From Suicoccus acidiformans (lineage in GTDB: Bacteria > Bacillota > Bacilli > Lactobacillales > Aerococcaceae): DNA of 64,000 nt. This document shows, piece after piece, positions 5,059-51,596 of the stretch. Below the pieces are notes generated by a model. The model saw only the letters and a program-made list of their open reading frames with translations, had not been told where the DNA came from and ran no database searches. The position numbers and the translations under genes were made by a program. The DNA lies in assembly GCF_003546865.1 (NCBI RefSeq), contig NZ_CP023434.1, positions 930,001 to 994,000 on the forward strand, in the 5' to 3' direction. Positions within the stretch are counted from its first letter, which is position 1. Every line of letters begins with the position of its first letter.

Positions 5059-5384
5059 CTTTCACTCCTTAATTTATTCGCTTGCGCTTTATTTTTCCTT
5101 ATAAATTTAAGCGATTTGGCCAAGAATTACAATAGAAAATTTCATCATAATCCTGACAAAATATCTCATTGGATTGTAAAGATGGCCACGTTCAGAGACC
5201 GCGTGGGTTTGGGGATGATTGGGCTCGGAATGGGTGTTGGCTGGAGAAGGCTGGGTGGTGGAGGGCTTAAGTTGATGTAAAGAGAGAAAGTGTATTAAGT
5301 GTGCTTCGGGTATAGGAAAGGATGGCTTGTGGTAGGGGCTGGCGAGTCGTGTTGAAAGTCCGTGATTAGTGGACTTGGATTGTA

Positions 5385-6137
5385 GACTTACGTGGTAAGC
5401 AGCTACCACGTTAGTGAAAAGTGGTTAGACTTACGTGGAGGAAGTCTGCCACGTAATTGGCGGGTGTTTAGACTGGCGTGGTAGGAGTCTACCACGTAAG
5501 TGATAGGGGTTTTGACTATCGTGGTAGAGTGCCACCACGATAGTCAAGGAAGTTTAGACGGGGGTTGAATTAGAGATTGTGCTGTCTTATCTGAGTGTGG
5601 CTACATGCTGGGTTTGTAATTAAGATGAGGAAGCCACGGCAGGGGTCGTGGCATCAACCTTTATTTGATCCGGGGAGAGTGGAAGGTGCTGTTTGGTGTC
5701 GGAGACTGGGGGATGTGGGTAGGCGGAGCGCGTTGAAAGTCTGTGATTAGTGGGACTTGGATTGTAGACTTACGTGGTAAGCAGCTACCACGTAAGTGAT
5801 AGGGGTTTTGACTATCGTGGTAGAGTGCCACCACGATAGTCAAGGAAGTTTAGACGGGGGTTGAATTAGAGATTGTGCTGTCTTATCTGAGTGTGGCTAC
5901 ATGCTGGGTTTGTAATTAAGATGAGGAAGCCACGGCAGGGGTCGTGGCATCAACCTTTATTTGATCCGGGGAGAGTGGAAGGTGCTGTTTGGTGTCGGAG
6001 ACTGGGGGATGTGGGTAGGCGGAGCGCGTTGAAAGTCTGTGATTAGTGGGACTTGGATTGTAGACTTACGTGGTAAGCAGCTACCACGTAAGTGATAGGG
6101 GTTTTGACTATCGTGGTAGAGTGCCACCACGATAGTC
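5385..6137 (-). repeat. Palindromic array 1: runs of 43-bp hairpin units
   Basis: Hairpins of the form GACTTACGTGGTA...TACCACG start at 5385, 5428, 5471 and 5514 (exactly 43 bp apart), then 5767 and 5810, then 6063 and 6106. The runs therefore hold 4, 2 and 2 units. Some arms pair over 12-14 bp, for example the unit at 5514. Between runs lies a constant body with a GCCACGGC...GTCGTGGC hairpin. Compared with arrays 2 and 3 the body is in reverse complement, so this array reads on the minus strand. Apparent reading frames here do not look like proteins. Confidence 0.85.
5488..6080 (-). repeat. Two tandem copies of a 296-bp module
   Basis: The stretch from about 5488 is repeated from about 5784 with a 296-bp offset and no difference that I can read over most of its length. 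Each copy holds two 43-bp hairpin units, the body, and the GCCACGGC hairpin. A partial third copy continues to about 6150 before diverging. Near identity points to a recent tandem duplication. Confidence 0.85.
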
Positions 6138-6251
6138 AAGGAAGGTCAGACTGGGTTTGGCTTAGGGCTTGTGCTGGCATACTTTAGCGTAGTTTTAGGT
6201 TATCAATAGGCATTCAAATTGTGGGCAATACTAACTTTTTTTGGGATTTCG

Positions 6252-6290
6252 AAAGCGAAACCCCTTCAAGCTTCAACTAACTTGAAGGGG
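6252..6290 (-). terminator. Terminator of the NERD-domain gene
   Basis: CCCCTTCAAG (6261-6270) pairs perfectly with CTTGAAGGGG (6281-6290). On the minus strand it is followed by a modest T-rich tail (GTTTCGCTTTCG), just past the stop at 6297. Confidence 0.75.
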
Positions 6291-6296
6291 TAAGAG

Positions 6297-7241
6297 CTAT
6301 TTTCTGCGCTTGTAGCGGAATTTTGGTATTTTATCCCAATACGTCAAGCGCTGAAGTGGATTGACGTAAATGTTTTGCGAAGGGTTTGAGATTCTTTCGA
6401 AGTGTCGATTGAGGGTTCTGAGAACCCAGGAGTATGGAACGTCTGGTCCGCAAAATTCTGCAATTTCATAGGCTCTGAGTGGTGCTTGGTAGTGCATGAT
6501 GCCGTAGTCGCAGATGGTGCGGACGAGAGCTTGTTCAGCGGACTCGGTAATGTTGCAGTTTTGACAGATGTACTTGTATCGGCTTTTGTCGGTGTATTCC
6601 AGAAAGCACTGAGGGCAGAGAATGCCGCGTTTGGCTTGGGGTACCCATTCTAGGCACTCGAATTCAAGCCCTTGGTGCGATGGGATAGTCCGTGGGAGTA
6701 ATCGCTCTGCGAATTTATCGGGCGAGAGCATTTTTTGGCCATAGAGATTATTCTTGAGGAAAGCTTTAACTTCCCAGCGTTTGAGATAGCTGTCGCGACA
6801 AGCTTCGCCGAAGTGGATAATGTCGTGCTCACTCATATAAACATTGCGACTGATAAGAGGCACTCCGCCGAGAAGTGGTGCCAGAATATCTTCGCCCCGA
6901 CTGATTTGGGCGAAAGGGTCATGAATCTTAATATCATTCGGACCATAAAGCGTACCGTTTCGATAGTGAAATTCGACTTGGTAATTCTTAATTTCAAAAA
7001 GAAACACACAATGTGGCGCAATCACGATACAGTCCAGCTGAATTCGCTGATTGGCACCATGAAAAGTTAGATCTGTGAGGACACGCCAATGCTCTGGTAT
7101 GCATGCAGTCAGTATTTGCTGAAAAGCCTGCTCACCTCGGTAGCCCATTTCTTGTGAATAAAGTTTACGTTTCGTATAGTCATCCAGTTGGCATCGTTCG
7201 TTAAGAATGTGAAGTAGTTGTTCTTCAAGTGTATGGTTCAT
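6297..7241 (-). CDS. NERD-domain protein with C-terminal zinc ribbon
   Basis: The N-terminal half (about residues 30-150) matches the NERD (nuclease-related) domain. It has GYRGEQAFQQIL, then QLDCIVIAPHCVFLFEIKNY, which supplies the D...E-x-K arrangement of PD-(D/E)xK-like nucleases. Around residues 218-240 a zinc ribbon is visible (CPQC and CQNC pairs). The last 80 residues have no recognised domain. NERD proteins are often of unknown function and some are tied to DNA processing or defence; nuclease activity here is inference. The gene stands alone between two outward-facing palindromic arrays. The start ATG at 7241 has GGAGGGAT upstream. Confidence 0.8.
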   Translation of the reverse strand: MNHTLEEQLLHILNERCQLDDYTKRKLYSQEMGYRGEQAFQQILTACIPEHWRVLTDLTFHGANQRIQLDCIVIAPHCVFLFEIKNYQVEFHYRNGTLYGPNDIKIHDPFAQISRGEDILAPLLGGVPLISRNVYMSEHDIIHFGEACRDSYLKRWEVKAFLKNNLYGQKMLSPDKFAERLLPRTIPSHQGLEFECLEWVPQAKRGILCPQCFLEYTDKSRYKYICQNCNITESAEQALVRTICDYGIMHYQAPLRAYEIAEFCGPDVPYSWVLRTLNRHFERISNPSQNIYVNPLQRLTYWDKIPKFRYKRRK

Positions 7242-7565
7242 GGTTATCCCTCCTATTTATATATACTGAAATAAGAGGCGAATTCCATGTGATGAGTTAC
7301 AAATTGGAACAAATTATTCGCTCAAAAAGATTTAGAGTAGTTAAGTACAGTGGTTTTGATTTGAAAAACAAATAAAGCTGCACACAATTTAACTATATAC
7401 CAATTGAAGCCACTTTGGCAGGTAAGCTTACATTGGGGGGGAGTGCATTTAAAGTTGGTGCCACAGCGTTTGTCGAGGCTTCTTCATCTTAAATCAATCA
7501 ACTGTGCCCAAAGCTATATTAGGTTAGGGGCTAGAATTCTGTACATTACAGGTTTGACCAATTCT

Positions 7566-8443
7566 GACTATCGTGGTGCACATTTACCACGCTAGTCAAA
7601 CTGAGTTTGAGTTACGTGGTAGAAACCTACCACGCTAGTCAAGCATGCCTAGACTTACGTGGTGCCCACCTACCACGCTAGTCAAACGGATTTAGACTTA
7701 CGTGGTAGCCTCTTACCACGCCAGTCAGTTTACGCTGAAGAGGCAAAAAGCCGTTTCCGCCACCAAATAGAGTCACAACTTACGACTTTTCAGCACCAAC
7801 TCCGTACAAGTAAGCCTAAATTTCCATCGTTTGGCCCACAAACAAAGCCAATCATCCACCACCGGATCAGATAAAGGTTAAAGCCACGGCCCGCGCCGTG
7901 GCTTCCTCATCTTAAATCAATCAACTGTGCCCGAAGCTACATTGGTTTAGGGGCTAGAATTCTGTACATTACAGGGTTGACCAATTCTGACTATCGTGGT
8001 AGAAACTTACCACGATAGTTAAACAAGCCTAGACTTCCGTGGTGGACATCTACCACGCTAGTCAAACTGGGTTTGAGTTACATGGTAGACTCTTACCACG
8101 TAAGTCAATTTACGTCGAAGAGGCAAAAAGCCATTTCCGCCACCAAATAGAGTCACAACTTACGACTTTTTAGCACTAATTCCGGACAATTAAGCTTACA
8201 TTTCCATCGTTTGGCCTGCAGACAAACCCAATCATCCACCACCGGATCAGATAAAGGTTGATGCCACGGCCCGCGCCGTGGCTTCCTCATCTTAAATCAA
8301 TCAACTGTGCCCGAAGCTACATTGGTTTAGGGGCTAGAATTCTGTACATTACAGGGTTGACCAATTCTGACTATCGTGGTGCACGTTTACCACGCTAGTC
8401 AAACGGATTTTGACTTACGTGGTAGACTCTTACCACGTAAGTC
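7566..8443 (+). repeat. Palindromic array 2: runs of 4, 3 and 2 hairpin units, 43-bp period
   Basis: Units start at 7566, 7609, 7652, 7695; then 7989, 8032, 8075; then 8369, 8412. Each unit is a 32-bp hairpin (GACTTACGTGGT...ACCACGCTAGTC) plus an 11-bp linker. Runs start 423 bp and 380 bp apart, which equals a constant 251 bp plus 4 or 3 units. The body between runs carries a GCCACGGCCCGCGCCGTGGC hairpin followed by TTCCTCATCTTAAATCAATC. A further copy of the terminal hairpin is at 8604. The region from 7242 to 8640 contains no convincing gene. Confidence 0.88.
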
Positions 8444-8601
8444 AATTTACGGCGAAAAGGCAAAAAGCCATTTCCGCCACCAAATAGAGTCACAACTTAC
8501 GACTTTTCAGCACCAACTCCGTACAAGTAAGCCTAAATTTCCAGTGTTCGGCCCACAAACAAAAGCCAATCATCCACCACCGAATCAGATAATGCATGAA
8601 A

Positions 8602-8630
8602 GAAGCCACGGCAATCGCCGTGGCTTTCAT
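8602..8630 (-). terminator. Array-type hairpin serving as terminator of the luciferase-like gene
   Basis: GAAGCCACGGC and GCCGTGGCTTTC form a stem just past the stop codon at 8641. On the minus strand the tail is TTCTTTC. The hairpin is the same element that closes each module of array 2. Confidence 0.6.
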
Positions 8631-8640
8631 AGATTAAAGC

Positions 8641-10307: not shown

Positions 10308-10688
10308 ATGGGCCAAGAATTAGTTGAAATTTGCTTACGTGTTCGTGATATTGATGCGACGTTGGATTTCTATACGAATTTATTTGATTTTAAAGTGGAT
10401 GAGGAACGTAAATACCCTGACGATGGCTTTGATTTGATTTACTTGGCGTCGCCGGGAGCATCGGTCCGCATTGAGTTGACTTATAATTATGACGCTGATC
10501 CATATGAAGTTGGGAATGGCTTCAGTCATCTCGGTGTGACGGTTGACGACTTGGAAGCGATGCACGACGTGTGTAAGGCTTCGCCTTATGAAACGGGTGA
10601 CTTGCGCGGTTTATCAGGTGGGACACCTAGCTATTTCTTCGTGACCGATCCTGATGGTTATCGCATTGAAGTGAAGCGCCGGAAATAA
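10308..10688 (+). CDS. Glyoxalase I-like VOC-fold metalloprotein
   Basis: The protein of 126 residues belongs to the vicinal-oxygen-chelate superfamily and is closest in appearance to lactoylglutathione lyase. The start MGQELVE at 10308 is chosen because AGGAGG lies 8 nt upstream; the ATG six bases earlier is too close to it. Compared with E. coli GloA, three metal ligands are visible: Glu in RIELTYN, His in FSHLGVTV, and Glu in YRIEVKR. The first ligand, usually His in the opening strand, appears to be Glu (ELVEICLRV). The function may therefore differ from methylglyoxal detoxification. Confidence 0.8.
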   Translation: MGQELVEICLRVRDIDATLDFYTNLFDFKVDEERKYPDDGFDLIYLASPGASVRIELTYNYDADPYEVGNGFSHLGVTVDDLEAMHDVCKASPYETGDLRGLSGGTPSYFFVTDPDGYRIEVKRRK

Positions 10689-23014: not shown

Positions 23015-24140
23015 GACTATCGTGGTGGAGCTCTACCACGTAACTGAAGAGCACGCAGACTATCGTGGTAGGAGTCTACCACGTAACTGAAGAGTCTGCA
23101 GACTATCGTGGTAGGGTTCCACCACGTAATTGAAGAGTCCGCAGACTATCGTGGTAAGAGTCCACCACGCAAGTGAAACGCCTGTATACTACCGTGGTAG
23201 ATTCTACCACGTAAGTCTGAAACGCATATTACAAAATACAACTCATACCTCCACAAATTTGTGCCAATTCCACCAGACCAAACACAAATCTCATCATTTA
23301 GGTGCCATGCCATTGGCTTCGTCTCCTGCACCGAGCCGAGCGCTCTCTCCGGATCTAATCCAGGTTGATGTCACGGCGTTTTGCCGTGGCTTCCTTATCA
23401 ATACCATCAACCATGCCCTTAGCAATTCAGAGTCAAATAACGCAAATCCTGCCTCAAACCGCTTTGATCATTGTTGACTATCGTGGTAGAGTTTCACCAC
23501 GTAATTGAAGAGTCCGCAGACTATCGTGGTAGGGTTCCACCACGTAATTGAGATGCCCGCAGACTATCGTGGTAAGAGTCCACCACGCAAGTGAAACGCC
23601 TGTAGACTACCGTGGTAGATTCTACCACGGTAGTCTGCAACGCATATTGCAAAATACAACTCAGAACTTCCCGAATTTGTGCCACTTTCGCCAGACCAAA
23701 CACAAATCTCATCATTTAGGCGCCATGCCATTGGCTTCGTCTCCTGCACCGAGCCGAGCGCTCTCTCCGGATCTAATCCAGGTTGATGTCACGGTGTTTT
23801 GCCGTGGCTTCCTTATCACAAATACCAATCATGCCCCTAGCAATTCAGGGTCAAATAACGCAAATCCTGCCTCAAACCACTTTGACCATTATTGACTATC
23901 GTGGTAGCATCCCACCACGCAAGTGAAGCGCCCGCAGACTATCGTGGTAGGGTTCCACCACGTAATTGAAGAGTCCGCAGACTATCCTGGTAAGAGTCTA
24001 CCACGCAAGTGAAGAGTCCGCAGACTATCCTGGTAAGAGTCTACCACGCAAGTGAAGCGTCCCTAGACTATCGTGGTAGCATCCCACCACGTAACTGAAG
24101 CGCCCGTAGACTCTCGTGGTAGAACCCCATCACGCCAGCG
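23015..24140 (+). repeat. Palindromic array 3: runs of 5, 4 and 6 hairpin units, 43-bp period
   Basis: Units start at 23015, 23058, 23101, 23144, 23187; 23476, 23519, 23562, 23605; and 23894, 23937, 23980, 24023, 24066, 24109, all exactly 43 bp apart within a run. Arms are CGTGGTAG and CTACCACG with a 4-6 nt loop; linkers resemble AACTGAAGAGTCCGCA. Runs begin 461 and 418 bp apart, which equals a constant 246 bp plus 5 or 4 units. The body holds a TCACGGCG...GCCGTGGC hairpin followed by TTCCTTATC. Orientation is the same as array 2. Apparent proteins here come from the repeats. Confidence 0.9.
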
Positions 24141-47865: not shown

Positions 47866-48083
47866 AAAGGAAGCGTTGAAGAGAGGAAGTAGCCGATTCA
47901 TACAGAGAGAGGATGCATGCTGAGAGTCCTTATCGGTGAACGTAGCTCGGAGCTCGTTGGGTGAATGGAGTAGTCCAACGCGGAGAGGCACTCCGTTATG
48001 AATGGAAAGAGGGAGCTTTAGCTCTAAATTTAGGTGGTACCACGTTTCAAACGTCCTATGCTATGTGATAGGGCGTTTTTTAT
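47866..48083 (+). promoter_or_regulatory. T-box riboswitch upstream of valS
   Basis: The T-box sequence TTAGGTGGTACCACG (about 48030-48045) is followed by a terminator hairpin (AACGTCCTATGC...GATAGGGCGTTTTTT). A stem I of the usual kind spans about 47885-47965. The specifier is probably GTA (in GAACGTAGCTCGG), a valine codon, but GTG in the same region cannot be ruled out by eye. Binding of uncharged tRNA-Val would allow valS transcription. Its terminator ends 30 nt before valS. Confidence 0.88.
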
Positions 48084-48112: not shown

Positions 48113-50749
48113 ATGAATCAAGAATTATCACCGAAATATCAACCAGGTGAGGTTGAAGCGGGACGTTATCAGAAGTGGTTAGATCAAGGTGTCTTCAAAC
48201 CCTCAGAAGATCCAAAGGCCGAGCCGTATTCGGTTGTTATTCCACCACCCAATGTTACCGGGAAATTGCACTTAGGTCATGCCTGGGACGTTACCTTGCA
48301 AGATATGATTATACGTCAGAAACGCATGCAAGGCTATGACACGTTATGGCTACCTGGAATGGACCATGCTGGGATTGCTACCCAGGCGAAAGTGGAGGAG
48401 CGCTTGCGTGAAGACGGTGTCAGTCGCCACGATTTAGGCCGGGATGCTTTCTTGGAGAAGACCTGGGAGTGGAAAGAAGAATATGCCAGTGTTATCCGTG
48501 AACAATGGGGCAAGATGGGTATCTCCGTTGATTATAGTCGCGAGCGTTTCACCTTGGATGAAGGCTTAAATAAGGCGGTTAATAAAGCATTCGTTGATCT
48601 TTATGAGAAAGGTCTAATTTACCGCGGTGAATATATTATTAACTGGGATCCTGAAGCGCAGACAGCCTTATCAGATATTGAAGTCATTCACCAAGACGAC
48701 CAAGGTGCCTTCTATCACATTAATTACCCAGTGGTAGGGTCAGATGAAGTGCTAGAAATTGCTACTACACGTCCTGAAACGATGTTAGGAGATACAGCGA
48801 TTGCGGTTCATCCAGAAGACGAGCGTTACCAACACTTAATCGGTCAGAAAGCCTTACTGCCTCTAATGAATCGAGAAATTCCTATTGTAGCAGACGATTA
48901 TGTCGATATGGAATTTGGAACCGGTGCAGTGAAGATTACCCCAGCCCATGACCCGAATGACTTTGAAGTCGGCAATCGCCACGATTTACCGCGTATTAAC
49001 GTTATGCATAAAGACGGTAGCATTAATGAAAAGGGTGGCGCTTATGTAGGCATGGATCGTTTCGAAGCGCGGAAAGCCGTTGTCAAAGACTTGAAAGAGC
49101 AAGGCTACCTCGTTAAAGTCGAAGAAATGGTCCACAGTGTCGGTCACTCCGAACGTAGTGGAGCCGTCGTTGAGCCTTACCTATCTACCCAATGGTTCAT
49201 CAAAATGGCACCCCTCGCAGAGCGAGCTATCCAAAATCAGCAGACCGATGATGCGGTGGAATTCTTCCCGCCACGCTTTAACGATACGTTCCTGCAGTGG
49301 ATGGAGAATGTGCATGACTGGGTAATTTCACGTCAACTATGGTGGGGGCATCAAATCCCTGCTTGGTACCATAAGGAAACAGGCGAAGTGTATGTTGCAG
49401 AAACGGCACCAGCAGACGAAGCGAATTGGGAACGTGATCCGGATGTCCTAGATACGTGGTTCAGTTCAGCCCTTTGGCCATTTTCGACTATGGGTTGGCC
49501 GGAGCCGACGGAAGATTTTGAACGTTATTTCCCAACAAATACCTTAGTCACAGCATATGATATTATCTTCTTCTGGGTGAGTCGGATGATTTTCCAATCC
49601 TTGGAATTTACGGAACAGGCACCTTTTAGAAACGTCCTAATTCATGGTCTGATTCGGGATTCTGAAGGACGGAAGATGAGTAAGTCATTGGGTAACGGGA
49701 TCGATCCAATGGATGTCATCGATGAATACGGGGTAGATGCCCTACGTTGGTTCTTAGCTAACGGTTCTGCACCGGGTCAAGATATTCGTTATTCAACCGA
49801 CAAGATGGCGTCAGCTTGGAACTTCATTAACAAGATATGGAACGCGAGTCGTTACGTATTAATGAATGTAGGAGAGATGGATATTGAACATATTCAAATA
49901 GGGGCTGACTTGACCTTGGCGGACCGTTGGATTCTGTCACGCTTACAGTCAACAATCCGTGATGTAACGCGCCTTTTCGATAAGTTTGAATTTGGTGAGG
50001 CAGGCCGGGTCTTATACCACTTTATTTGGGATGATTACTGCGATTGGTATATTGAGATGACCAAGGAGAGCTTGCAAGATGAGACGAGCGATAATACATC
50101 TACGCGCAGCATTCTTGTCTACGTGCTTGACCAATTCTTGCGTTTATTACATCCTATTATGCCTTTTGTAACGGAGGAAATTTGGCAACATATTTCTGGT
50201 TCCCAAGTATCGATTGTGCTTGCATCGTATCCAACGGTTCAAGAGAAGTGGATTGATGAAGCCAGTGAACAGGCGATGAACCAACTCATCGATGTGATTC
50301 GGGCAGTACGGACGATTCGCAATGAGATGAATACGCCGCTCTCTAAAGAAGTTGACATCTTTATTAAGGTAAACCAAGCTACTACTGGTGAAATTATGGA
50401 AGCTAACCGAGCTTATATTGAGCGCTTTAGTAATCCGGCAAGTTTAGAAATTAGCCAAGCGCCAAATACACCGGAACAAGTTGTGAGCCAGACAACGTCC
50501 TTTGCGACGGTCATGATGCCACTGGAAGGCTTGGTATCCATTGAAGATGAGTTGAAGCGACTCGATCAAGAGAAACAAAAATTAATCAAAGAAGTTGAAC
50601 GAGTTGAGAAGAAATTAGCCAATGAGAACTTTGTCAGCAAAGCCCCTGAAGCTGTGGTGAATGCTGAGAAGGAGAAGGGTAAAGACTACAAACGTCAACT
50701 TGAAGCTGTCGAGCAGCAAATGGTACAGCTTGCTCAGTTAGGTGAATAA
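48113..50749 (+). CDS. valS: Valine--tRNA ligase
   Basis: ValS (878 residues, normal length) charges tRNA-Val. The class I signatures are [14 protein letters not shown] (HIGH) and [11 protein letters not shown] (KMSKS). Between them lies the CP1 editing domain (about 175-380). The C-terminal coiled coil ([20 protein letters not shown] onward) binds the tRNA. AAAGGAGAG precedes the ATG at 48113. It is controlled by the T-box leader above. In many relatives folC follows; here radC follows directly. Confidence 0.96.
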
Positions 50750-50882
50750 TACAGCAATATTTCGTGCAAAGCAGGCAATCCCAATGGAGCTGCCTGCTTA
50801 TCTTTATTTAATTTAAAAATTAAAAATTGGTCAGATGGAAATCGACCCTTTCTTGCGTATATATATAATAGGAGGGGATAAA

Positions 50883-51596
50883 ATGACCAATATGTTTATT
50901 CGAGAAGTTCCTAAAGAAATCAGACCACGTGAGCGCTTAGTAGAGTATGGTGCAGCAGCCTTATCTAATCAAGAGTTGCTAGCGATTCTCTTTCGAACCG
51001 GTCAACGAGGCGAGAATGTTCTGGAAATGTCACTGCGTTTTCTGTCGCGGTTTGAGAGTTTGCCTGAAATAAAAGGGGCAAGTTTAGAAGAGTTGACCGC
51101 TGTTAAAGGGATTGGCGAAGTGAAAGCCATTGAATTGAAAGCTGCTATTGAATTGGGCTACCGTATCGCAACAGCCTCGGTGCCGAAGTACGGGCAAGTC
51201 CTATCCACTGAAGCAGCAGGTCAATGGCTGATGCTTGAAATGGCTCATGAACAACAAGAATTACTGGTTGCCTTATTCTTAAACACTAAGAATGAAATTA
51301 TCCGCAAGGAAACCGTCTTTAAAGGCACGGTGAGCAGTTCCGTAGCGCATCCTAGGGAAATCTTCAAAGAAGCTGTGAAATACCCAACAGCCCGTATTAT
51401 TATGGCCCATAATCATCCATCAGGTGACCCAGAGCCGTCACGAGCTGATTTACAATTTACAAGGCGGATGATATTATGTGGGGATTTGATGGGAATTGAG
51501 TTGTTAGATCATATTATTGTCGGCGAGCGCGATTTCGTTAGTTTATTGGAGACGACGGATTTATTTGACGACCCGATGAGTCATATGGGGGATTAA
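50883..51596 (+). CDS. radC: RadC family (JAB-domain) protein
   Basis: The 237-residue protein has an N-terminal helix-hairpin-helix region (LVEYGAAALSNQELLAILFR; LEELTAVKGIGEVKA) and a C-terminal JAB-like metal domain with the motif HNHPSGDPEPSRAD. The family was named for radiation sensitivity; its biochemical function is not settled. The start MTNMFIRE at 50883 is preceded by AGGAGGGG; an upstream ATG at 50835 is not. It is 130 nt after valS. Confidence 0.92.
   Translation: MTNMFIREVPKEIRPRERLVEYGAAALSNQELLAILFRTGQRGENVLEMSLRFLSRFESLPEIKGASLEELTAVKGIGEVKAIELKAAIELGYRIATASVPKYGQVLSTEAAGQWLMLEMAHEQQELLVALFLNTKNEIIRKETVFKGTVSSSVAHPREIFKEAVKYPTARIIMAHNHPSGDPEPSRADLQFTRRMILCGDLMGIELLDHIIVGERDFVSLLETTDLFDDPMSHMGD

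Follow-up and report, generated by a model that had tools for sequence, protein, structure and literature searches.

The locus and its protein

The window analysed here (the whole stretch of 64,000 nucleotides from Suicoccus acidiformans, in whose coordinates the features below are given) carries a gene for a NERD-domain protein set between two arrays of palindromic units. Its relevant features are the following:

5383..6176, minus strand: array 1, which lies downstream of the NERD gene and has 8 dyad units with a 43-bp period; its 296-bp blocks contain body hairpins
6297..7241, minus strand: NERD nuclease gene, 314 aa (PF08378, E 1.1e-13)
7258..7287, minus strand: competence-type box TGGAATTCGCCTCTTATTTCAGTATATATA in the promoter of the NERD gene
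about 7560-8632, plus strand: array 2, which lies upstream of the NERD gene and has 9 dyad units; its blocks measure about 380 bp and contain body hairpins
about 23015-24134, plus strand: 13 units that form a third array of this dyad family, which no NERD gene adjoins
50837..50865, plus strand: reference competence box of radC (ORF 50883-51596)
E37, D70, E83 and K85 of the window protein: nuclease-domain residues, invariant in the alignment and in the homologues
C209/C212/C226/C229 of the window protein: zinc ribbon, CxxC...CxxC

The sequence-only reading had described two opposed arrays with reverse-complementary bodies that enclose a single NERD gene with a zinc ribbon, and both parts of this description were borne out. 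The arrays are real tandem arrays, and their body hairpins, 54 bp long, are reverse-complementary at 89-93%; therefore array 1 reads on the minus strand and array 2 on the plus strand. In both arrays the blocks are made up of four parts: the body hairpin GATGCCACGGC...GCCGTGGCTTCC, a leader, a short run of CGTGGT-N8-ACCACG dyad units spaced at 43 bp, and a tail. The third array, 17 further arrays in the genome and the competence-type box all come on top of what had been listed before. Regarding known repeat classes, the Rfam search of the window arrays gave no match, and the arrays differ from CRISPRs in that the units vary as well as the spacers, and spacers reappear from one block to another; no cas genes were seen by eye among the ORFs listed around the arrays. 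Elsewhere in the window, a T-box leader (Rfam RF00230) lies at 47867-48061, before an ORF (48113-50749) that reads as valyl-tRNA synthetase.

The window protein scores 52.1 bits against PF08378, whose curated cut-off is 22.1. E37, D70, E/D83, K85 and the four zinc-ribbon cysteines are retained in 61 of 61 NERD proteins, 40 of which were not pre-filtered on motifs while the other 21 were picked with filters that included part of those residues. The ribbon has a weak likeness to the Rpb12 zinc ribbon (E 0.002), and the C terminus behind it reads as helix-turn-helix-like; a single-sequence structure model (mean pLDDT 37) puts three helices there with low confidence. The NCBIfam search with the protein gave one match, far below its cut-off, and the PHROGs search gave nothing of note.

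Distribution of the dyad family in the genome

A two-unit pattern of the family matched 147 times in the window genome against 0 for the reversed control, and all 147 matches fall into 20 arrays of 2 to 36 units, one counted unit being a chance match. The spacing is nearly invariant: among the 157 gaps between units shorter than 60 bp, 154 are exactly 43 bp, two are 42 and one is 44. The remaining 26 inter-unit gaps span 77 to 627 bp, and the 77-bp gap ends at the chance match instead of a unit. Only two of the 20 arrays touch a NERD gene, and the other 18 sit between unrelated genes in all orientations. Among 76 genomes of the family the pattern is present in one, the window genome itself. 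A scan of a genome collection, in which records near the window genome may be missing, gave 10 stretches that on inspection were single pairs of other kinds.

The 20 arrays are grouped into 11 clusters against an expected 16.6 (P 0.0009). They lie towards the half of the chromosome opposite dnaA, with P 0.027 on one test and a Rayleigh P of 0.13. We considered arrays that act as terminus-linked organisers and did not retain this idea, as the clustering and the position are suggestive only. Besides dnaA, eighteen above-cut-off matches to the DnaA family lie between 33813 and 2293833 of the window genome, mostly with the same score, and these are probably the helper ATPases of repeated insertion sequences.

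We also observed palindromes of other kinds. Those of the form GGATTCCGTGGG...CCCACGGAAT, at about 1371-1432 and at 10558 of locus L051 and at 7116 of L046, may be a second family of hairpins in the window genome. L081, L084-L088 and L090, which are Sulfurovaceae, Epsilonproteobacteria and Nitratifractor records, contain palindromes GTAGCGTGGGC...GCCCACG in pairs, spaced at 43 bp except for one pair at 56, and these pairs resemble GTAG-type REP dimers.

The locus had also been likened to a defence cassette. This is unsupported: the defence-library search (PADLOC) gave for the NERD protein no family beyond one weak 14-bit match, and no copies were found in phage, plasmid and viral collections. 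A narrow cassette made of the window NERD gene and its specific repeat was rejected too, given the 18 arrays without a NERD gene and the second NERD gene of the window genome (at 607 kb), which adjoins a different repeat.

The sequence-only reading had proposed that the link would fall if the repeats occurred widely without NERD neighbours and the NERD gene widely without the repeats. Taken literally, this is what was found: 18 arrays are free of NERD, and of the 75 other family genomes 38 have NERD homologues and none has the window repeat. On the distribution of the window repeat alone the NERD link would thus pass for coincidence. The modular build of a body plus units, and the position of the arrays between unrelated genes in every orientation, speak for ordinary repetitive DNA (BOX- or MITE-like repeats, terminators or stabilisers of mRNA 3' ends) that the protein does not recognise. 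We think this improbable, since it leaves unexplained why a different repeat lies beside nearly every NERD gene and why half-sites are kept at an exact 43-bp spacing without conserved pairing. The proposal above was too narrow, as it took no account of a repeat sequence that differs between genes.

NERD genes and their private repeats

NERD homologues are present in 39 of the 76 family genomes, the window genome included. A tandem repeat finder reported an array at 10 of 15 other NERD loci (L040 and L067-L080), mostly abutting the gene, and the periods of these arrays include 31, 41, 42, 51 and 52 bp. Read by eye, most of the same loci have inverted repeats of differing sequence, also where the finder reported none.

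Blind tests were made on 40 stretches of 16 kb around NERD matches from 12 family genomes, and on larger sets. The loci were picked by match score and long contigs, not at random, and ten duplicates were removed. Three tests gave the following results.

i) Repeated dyads within 500 bp (the same 6-base arm in at least 3 copies) were found at 25 of 41 NERD ORFs and at 17 of 216 other ORFs from the same stretches (Fisher p 2e-13), where 4 of the 17 control positives are ORFs of L097, a stretch listed earlier as NERD and followed by an array, which had no tblastn NERD match in this test and was therefore counted among the controls.

ii) Dyads with 8-base arms, assessed with 40 dinucleotide shuffles per flank, were found at 40 of 61 NERD genes and 24 of 202 controls (Fisher p 8e-16), the 61 leaving out L102, whose ORF is truncated and at which no array was seen. 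In this set the repeats lie downstream of the NERD gene in 34 cases and upstream in 8.

iii) Motifs of 9 bases, direct or inverted, within 400 bp and mostly downstream, were found at 71 of the 77 NERD genes and 40 of the 202 controls (Fisher p 6e-30), so that 20% of the control genes also satisfy this lax test, a point in favour of ordinary repeats. By group, the test is passed by 41 of 45 genes of the family, 15 of 16 of other families of the order and 15 of 16 of other orders of the class, all set against controls drawn from family stretches only. Judged by gene content, the order is probably Lactobacillales and the class Bacilli.

The window gene passes the 6-base and the 8-base dyad tests and misses the lax one because its arrays begin further out. 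Seven loci were left out, L067, L068, L076, L170, L178 and L181 by the ORF filter and L237 for want of an ORF; arrays are visible at L067, L068 and L076. NERD genes mostly adjoin repeats of their own, and the motif is not the same from one gene to the next. In a second NERD subgroup from other orders of the same class (L224, L226, L230, L231, L234 and L235) short direct repeats of about 20 bp stand in place of dyads.

The variety is also seen inside one genome. G036 has 14 NERD matches, with many unlike pairs of NERD gene and array, and its paralogues have unlike motifs, for example AACGAACT, CGCGTATA, AAGTGGCC, ATAACTTC, CGTCAGAT and CATTGTCA. Similar dyads were found at closely alike proteins in two cases, L124/L071 and L127/L079/L169. 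The proteins of L101 and L106 are 85% alike in the nuclease part and 91% in the middle (to residue 204), against 50% in the zinc ribbon and 60% in the helix-turn-helix part, and their dyads differ. Counted over all pairs by C-terminal identity, a dyad is shared by 1 of 6 pairs at 55% or more, 0 of 7 at 45-55% and 7 of 263 below 25%; since this count gives no clear relation, and a single pair is suggestive, co-divergence of the C-terminal part and the dyad is a lead only.

Regarding dispersal, 25 exact dyads of one NERD gene of G036 lie at 18 places. When the arms were chosen by hand, dyads turned up again in 5 of 143 further stretches of their own genome against 8 of 910 stretches of other genomes; the five stem from only two families, and in 4 of the 27 rows of this test the hand-picked arm was not counted even at its own locus. 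Most other families have no copy beyond the NERD locus in the sampled part of the genome. Spread is clear for two repeat families, that of the window and one of G036, and is not general.

Dyad or hairpin

Among the 182 distinct units of the window family the half-site ACTNNCGTGGTR is kept on both sides. At the variable positions of the palindrome, pairing is kept no more than with shuffled partners, in a test that is weakened by the relatedness of units inside one array. Because the variable positions lack compensatory pairing, recognition of double-stranded dyads is favoured, and the exact in-phase spacing with fixed half-sites would fit a dimer on double-stranded DNA better than a selected RNA or DNA hairpin. 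The suggestion that the protein acts on its own flanking hairpins therefore stands in part: it gains comparative support from the NERD genes of family, order and class, which mostly lie beside an array of their own, whereas the hairpin as the recognised form is doubtful, as base pairing is not maintained.

The same data bear on a pair of the type III toxin-antitoxin kind, in which the array would be transcribed and its RNA repeats would restrain the nuclease. A nuclease gene that adjoins a tandem array with repeats of 31-52 bp would suit such a pair. Nevertheless, the arrays come mostly after the gene, where type III pairs have their RNA repeats ahead of the toxin gene, the window family is without compensatory pairing, arrays are dispersed, the promoter is of the competence type (see below) and the fold family of ToxN is, we presume, unlike that of NERD; we consider this reading very improbable.

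A competence-type promoter

Many NERD genes are preceded by a common TGGAA-N8-TTTTTNCGTATWTATA, a promoter that the sequence-only reading had not foreseen. With up to three mismatches allowed, and with counts for the reversed control in brackets, this box gave 4 (3) matches in the window genome, 21 (2) in G036, 19 (4) in G057, 16 (5) in G056 and 7 (2) in G054. We examined 20 of the 21 matches of G036: 10 stand before NERD genes, 6 before competence genes (cinA, comGA, radC, ssb, a comFA-like gene and prepilin peptidase), 1 before the gene of a secreted, surface-like protein and 3 before nothing notable. The matches of the window genome include radC and a comFA-like gene. The enrichment at NERD genes is partly circular because the pattern was first read off NERD genes; the competence identity of the other genes behind the box is free of that circularity.

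Concerning these identities, NCBIfam matches above cut-off were obtained for ComGA, CinA, RadC, DprA and SSB, and ComEA was recognised via its repeat region. Pfam confirms CoiA and the type IV prepilin peptidase, and the ComFA-like assignment rests on helicase domains together with sequence reading. In three genomes (L201 in G036, L137 in G056 and L138 in G057) a competence box is also directly followed by the gene of a protein of about 500 aa that is secreted and possibly anchored in the wall.

A weight matrix was built from 23 sites of late competence genes (comGA, comEA, dprA, coiA, cinA, radC and ssb) and compared with 295 control upstream regions. On this scale 34 of 61 NERD upstream regions lie above the 99th percentile of the controls and 29 above all 295 of them, while 27 fall short of the threshold. 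It is passed by 30 of 45 genes in the family and 4 of 16 outside it. The window NERD gene reaches 13.7, where the best control has 1.9; the second NERD gene of the window genome scores -6.1, which is not above the 99th percentile.

With this promoter in hand a competence-timed guard has to be weighed, in which the nuclease would destroy or block incoming DNA or recombination intermediates and the arrays would mark the element as self or serve as landing sites, steering the nuclease or holding it back, and the element would thereby escape replacement during transformation. The promoter and the conserved nuclease residues agree with a guard, as do the many unlike pairs in a genome such as G036 and the finding that most arrays are seen at their own gene only. 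However, there is no link to phages, plasmids or the defence library, and a guard by itself leaves the 18 NERD-free arrays of the window genome unexplained. We judge it unlikely, although it is the alternative we take most seriously.

Proposed explanation

A nuclease predicted to be transcribed with the competence genes, beside a private array of sites, is best explained, in our view, as a pair of protein and sites that would act during DNA uptake. Specifically, we propose that the NERD gene and the flanking dyad arrays form one functional pair, a competence-expressed nuclease with its own DNA sites that is comparable to RAYT-REP in anatomy, its enzyme being unrelated, and we hold this tentatively, as a reading somewhat short of probable. 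The nuclease would be transcribed from the competence promoter (ComX/sigma-H type), and a NERD dimer would bind its own dyads via the C-terminal zinc ribbon and helix-turn-helix. It may then act on dyad-bearing DNA during uptake; the most likely action, in our opinion, would be to nick or break DNA at the dyads or close to them, with repair through recombination afterwards. Such an action could multiply the units locally and spread them in some genomes, and in that case the pair would resemble, in its behaviour, a RAYT-REP element whose enzyme is PD-(D/E)XK-like. What the sequences themselves show is the association, a private repeat at each gene, the kept nuclease residues, the promoter and, for the window family, exact spacing with fixed half-sites; the binding, the cleavage, the spread, the part in transformation and the benefit to the cell or to the element are what we infer. 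The pair may spread itself, guard its locus or serve the cell.

A wider proposal, which is possible and which we hold with less confidence than the pair itself, is that these are widespread competence-coupled elements, in which a NERD nuclease exploits DNA uptake either to copy itself together with its sites or to protect both from replacement, and is retargeted by change of its C-terminal part. Such elements would make up a system, selfish or self-marking, that is founded on natural transformation and has many unlike pairs per genome.

If this is true, part of the intergenic repeats regarded as 'junk' would be owned by a nuclease family that is expressed with the DNA-uptake machinery, and natural transformation would gain a layer, the targeted handling of particular DNA sites. 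Furthermore, there would be a ready source of pairs of nuclease and target site with many specificities, and it would become testable how lineage-specific palindromic repeats arise and turn over outside the RAYT world.

Comparison with known systems

BOX elements are modular intergenic repeats with a variable number of a module of 40-odd bp. The arrays resemble the BOX, RUP and EFAR repeats of Firmicutes in being modular, intergenic and capable of forming hairpins. We know of no dedicated nuclease gene that adjoins repeats of this type, whereas here the NERD genes each own a separate motif. RUP and EFAR are named as MITEs in PMC3733652.

The CIN-box of S. suis is YTACGAAYW (PMC5167698), and the NERD box TTACGTATA differs from it at one position. 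The likeness to a ComX regulon extends to the genes, as the NERD box is common to comGA, comEA, dprA, coiA, cinA, radC and ssb of the same genomes. NERD genes as members of the ComX regulon were not found in the literature searched.

An integron-cassette protein with a NERD domain and a C4 zinc finger is mentioned in a section of PMC3262767. NERD proteins in general (PF08378) thus share with ours a nuclease domain and a zinc finger, although that section mentions neither a repeat array nor competence control. No prior description that ties the NERD domain to palindromic or tandem repeats was found in the open-licence papers searched. The different array beside each relative in many other bacteria suggests that a NERD nuclease paired with its own DNA sites is an undescribed pairing.

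According to PMC2817692, the RAYT-REP anatomy is that of a gene for a REP-associated tyrosine transposase beside its cognate palindromes. The likeness lies in a nuclease-type gene with cognate palindromes, lineage-specific in sequence and, for two of the NERD repeat families, dispersed in the genome, and also in the gene flanked by two inverted repeats at the window locus, where the relatives mostly have them downstream only. The differences are that the window enzyme is NERD (PD-(D/E)XK-like) and not an HUH/Y1 transposase, that NERD has a competence promoter, that the dyad arrays are exactly spaced and in the relatives mostly one-sided, and that most NERD arrays are not seen elsewhere in the sampled stretches. 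Membership of REP/RAYT was rejected, as there is no intact Y1 transposase near the locus; in the window genome PF01797 is matched only by two pieces in 72-aa frames, which lie at 2.125 Mb, more than 1 Mb away. Although its defining transposase is absent here, RAYT-REP is the closest known kind in anatomy.
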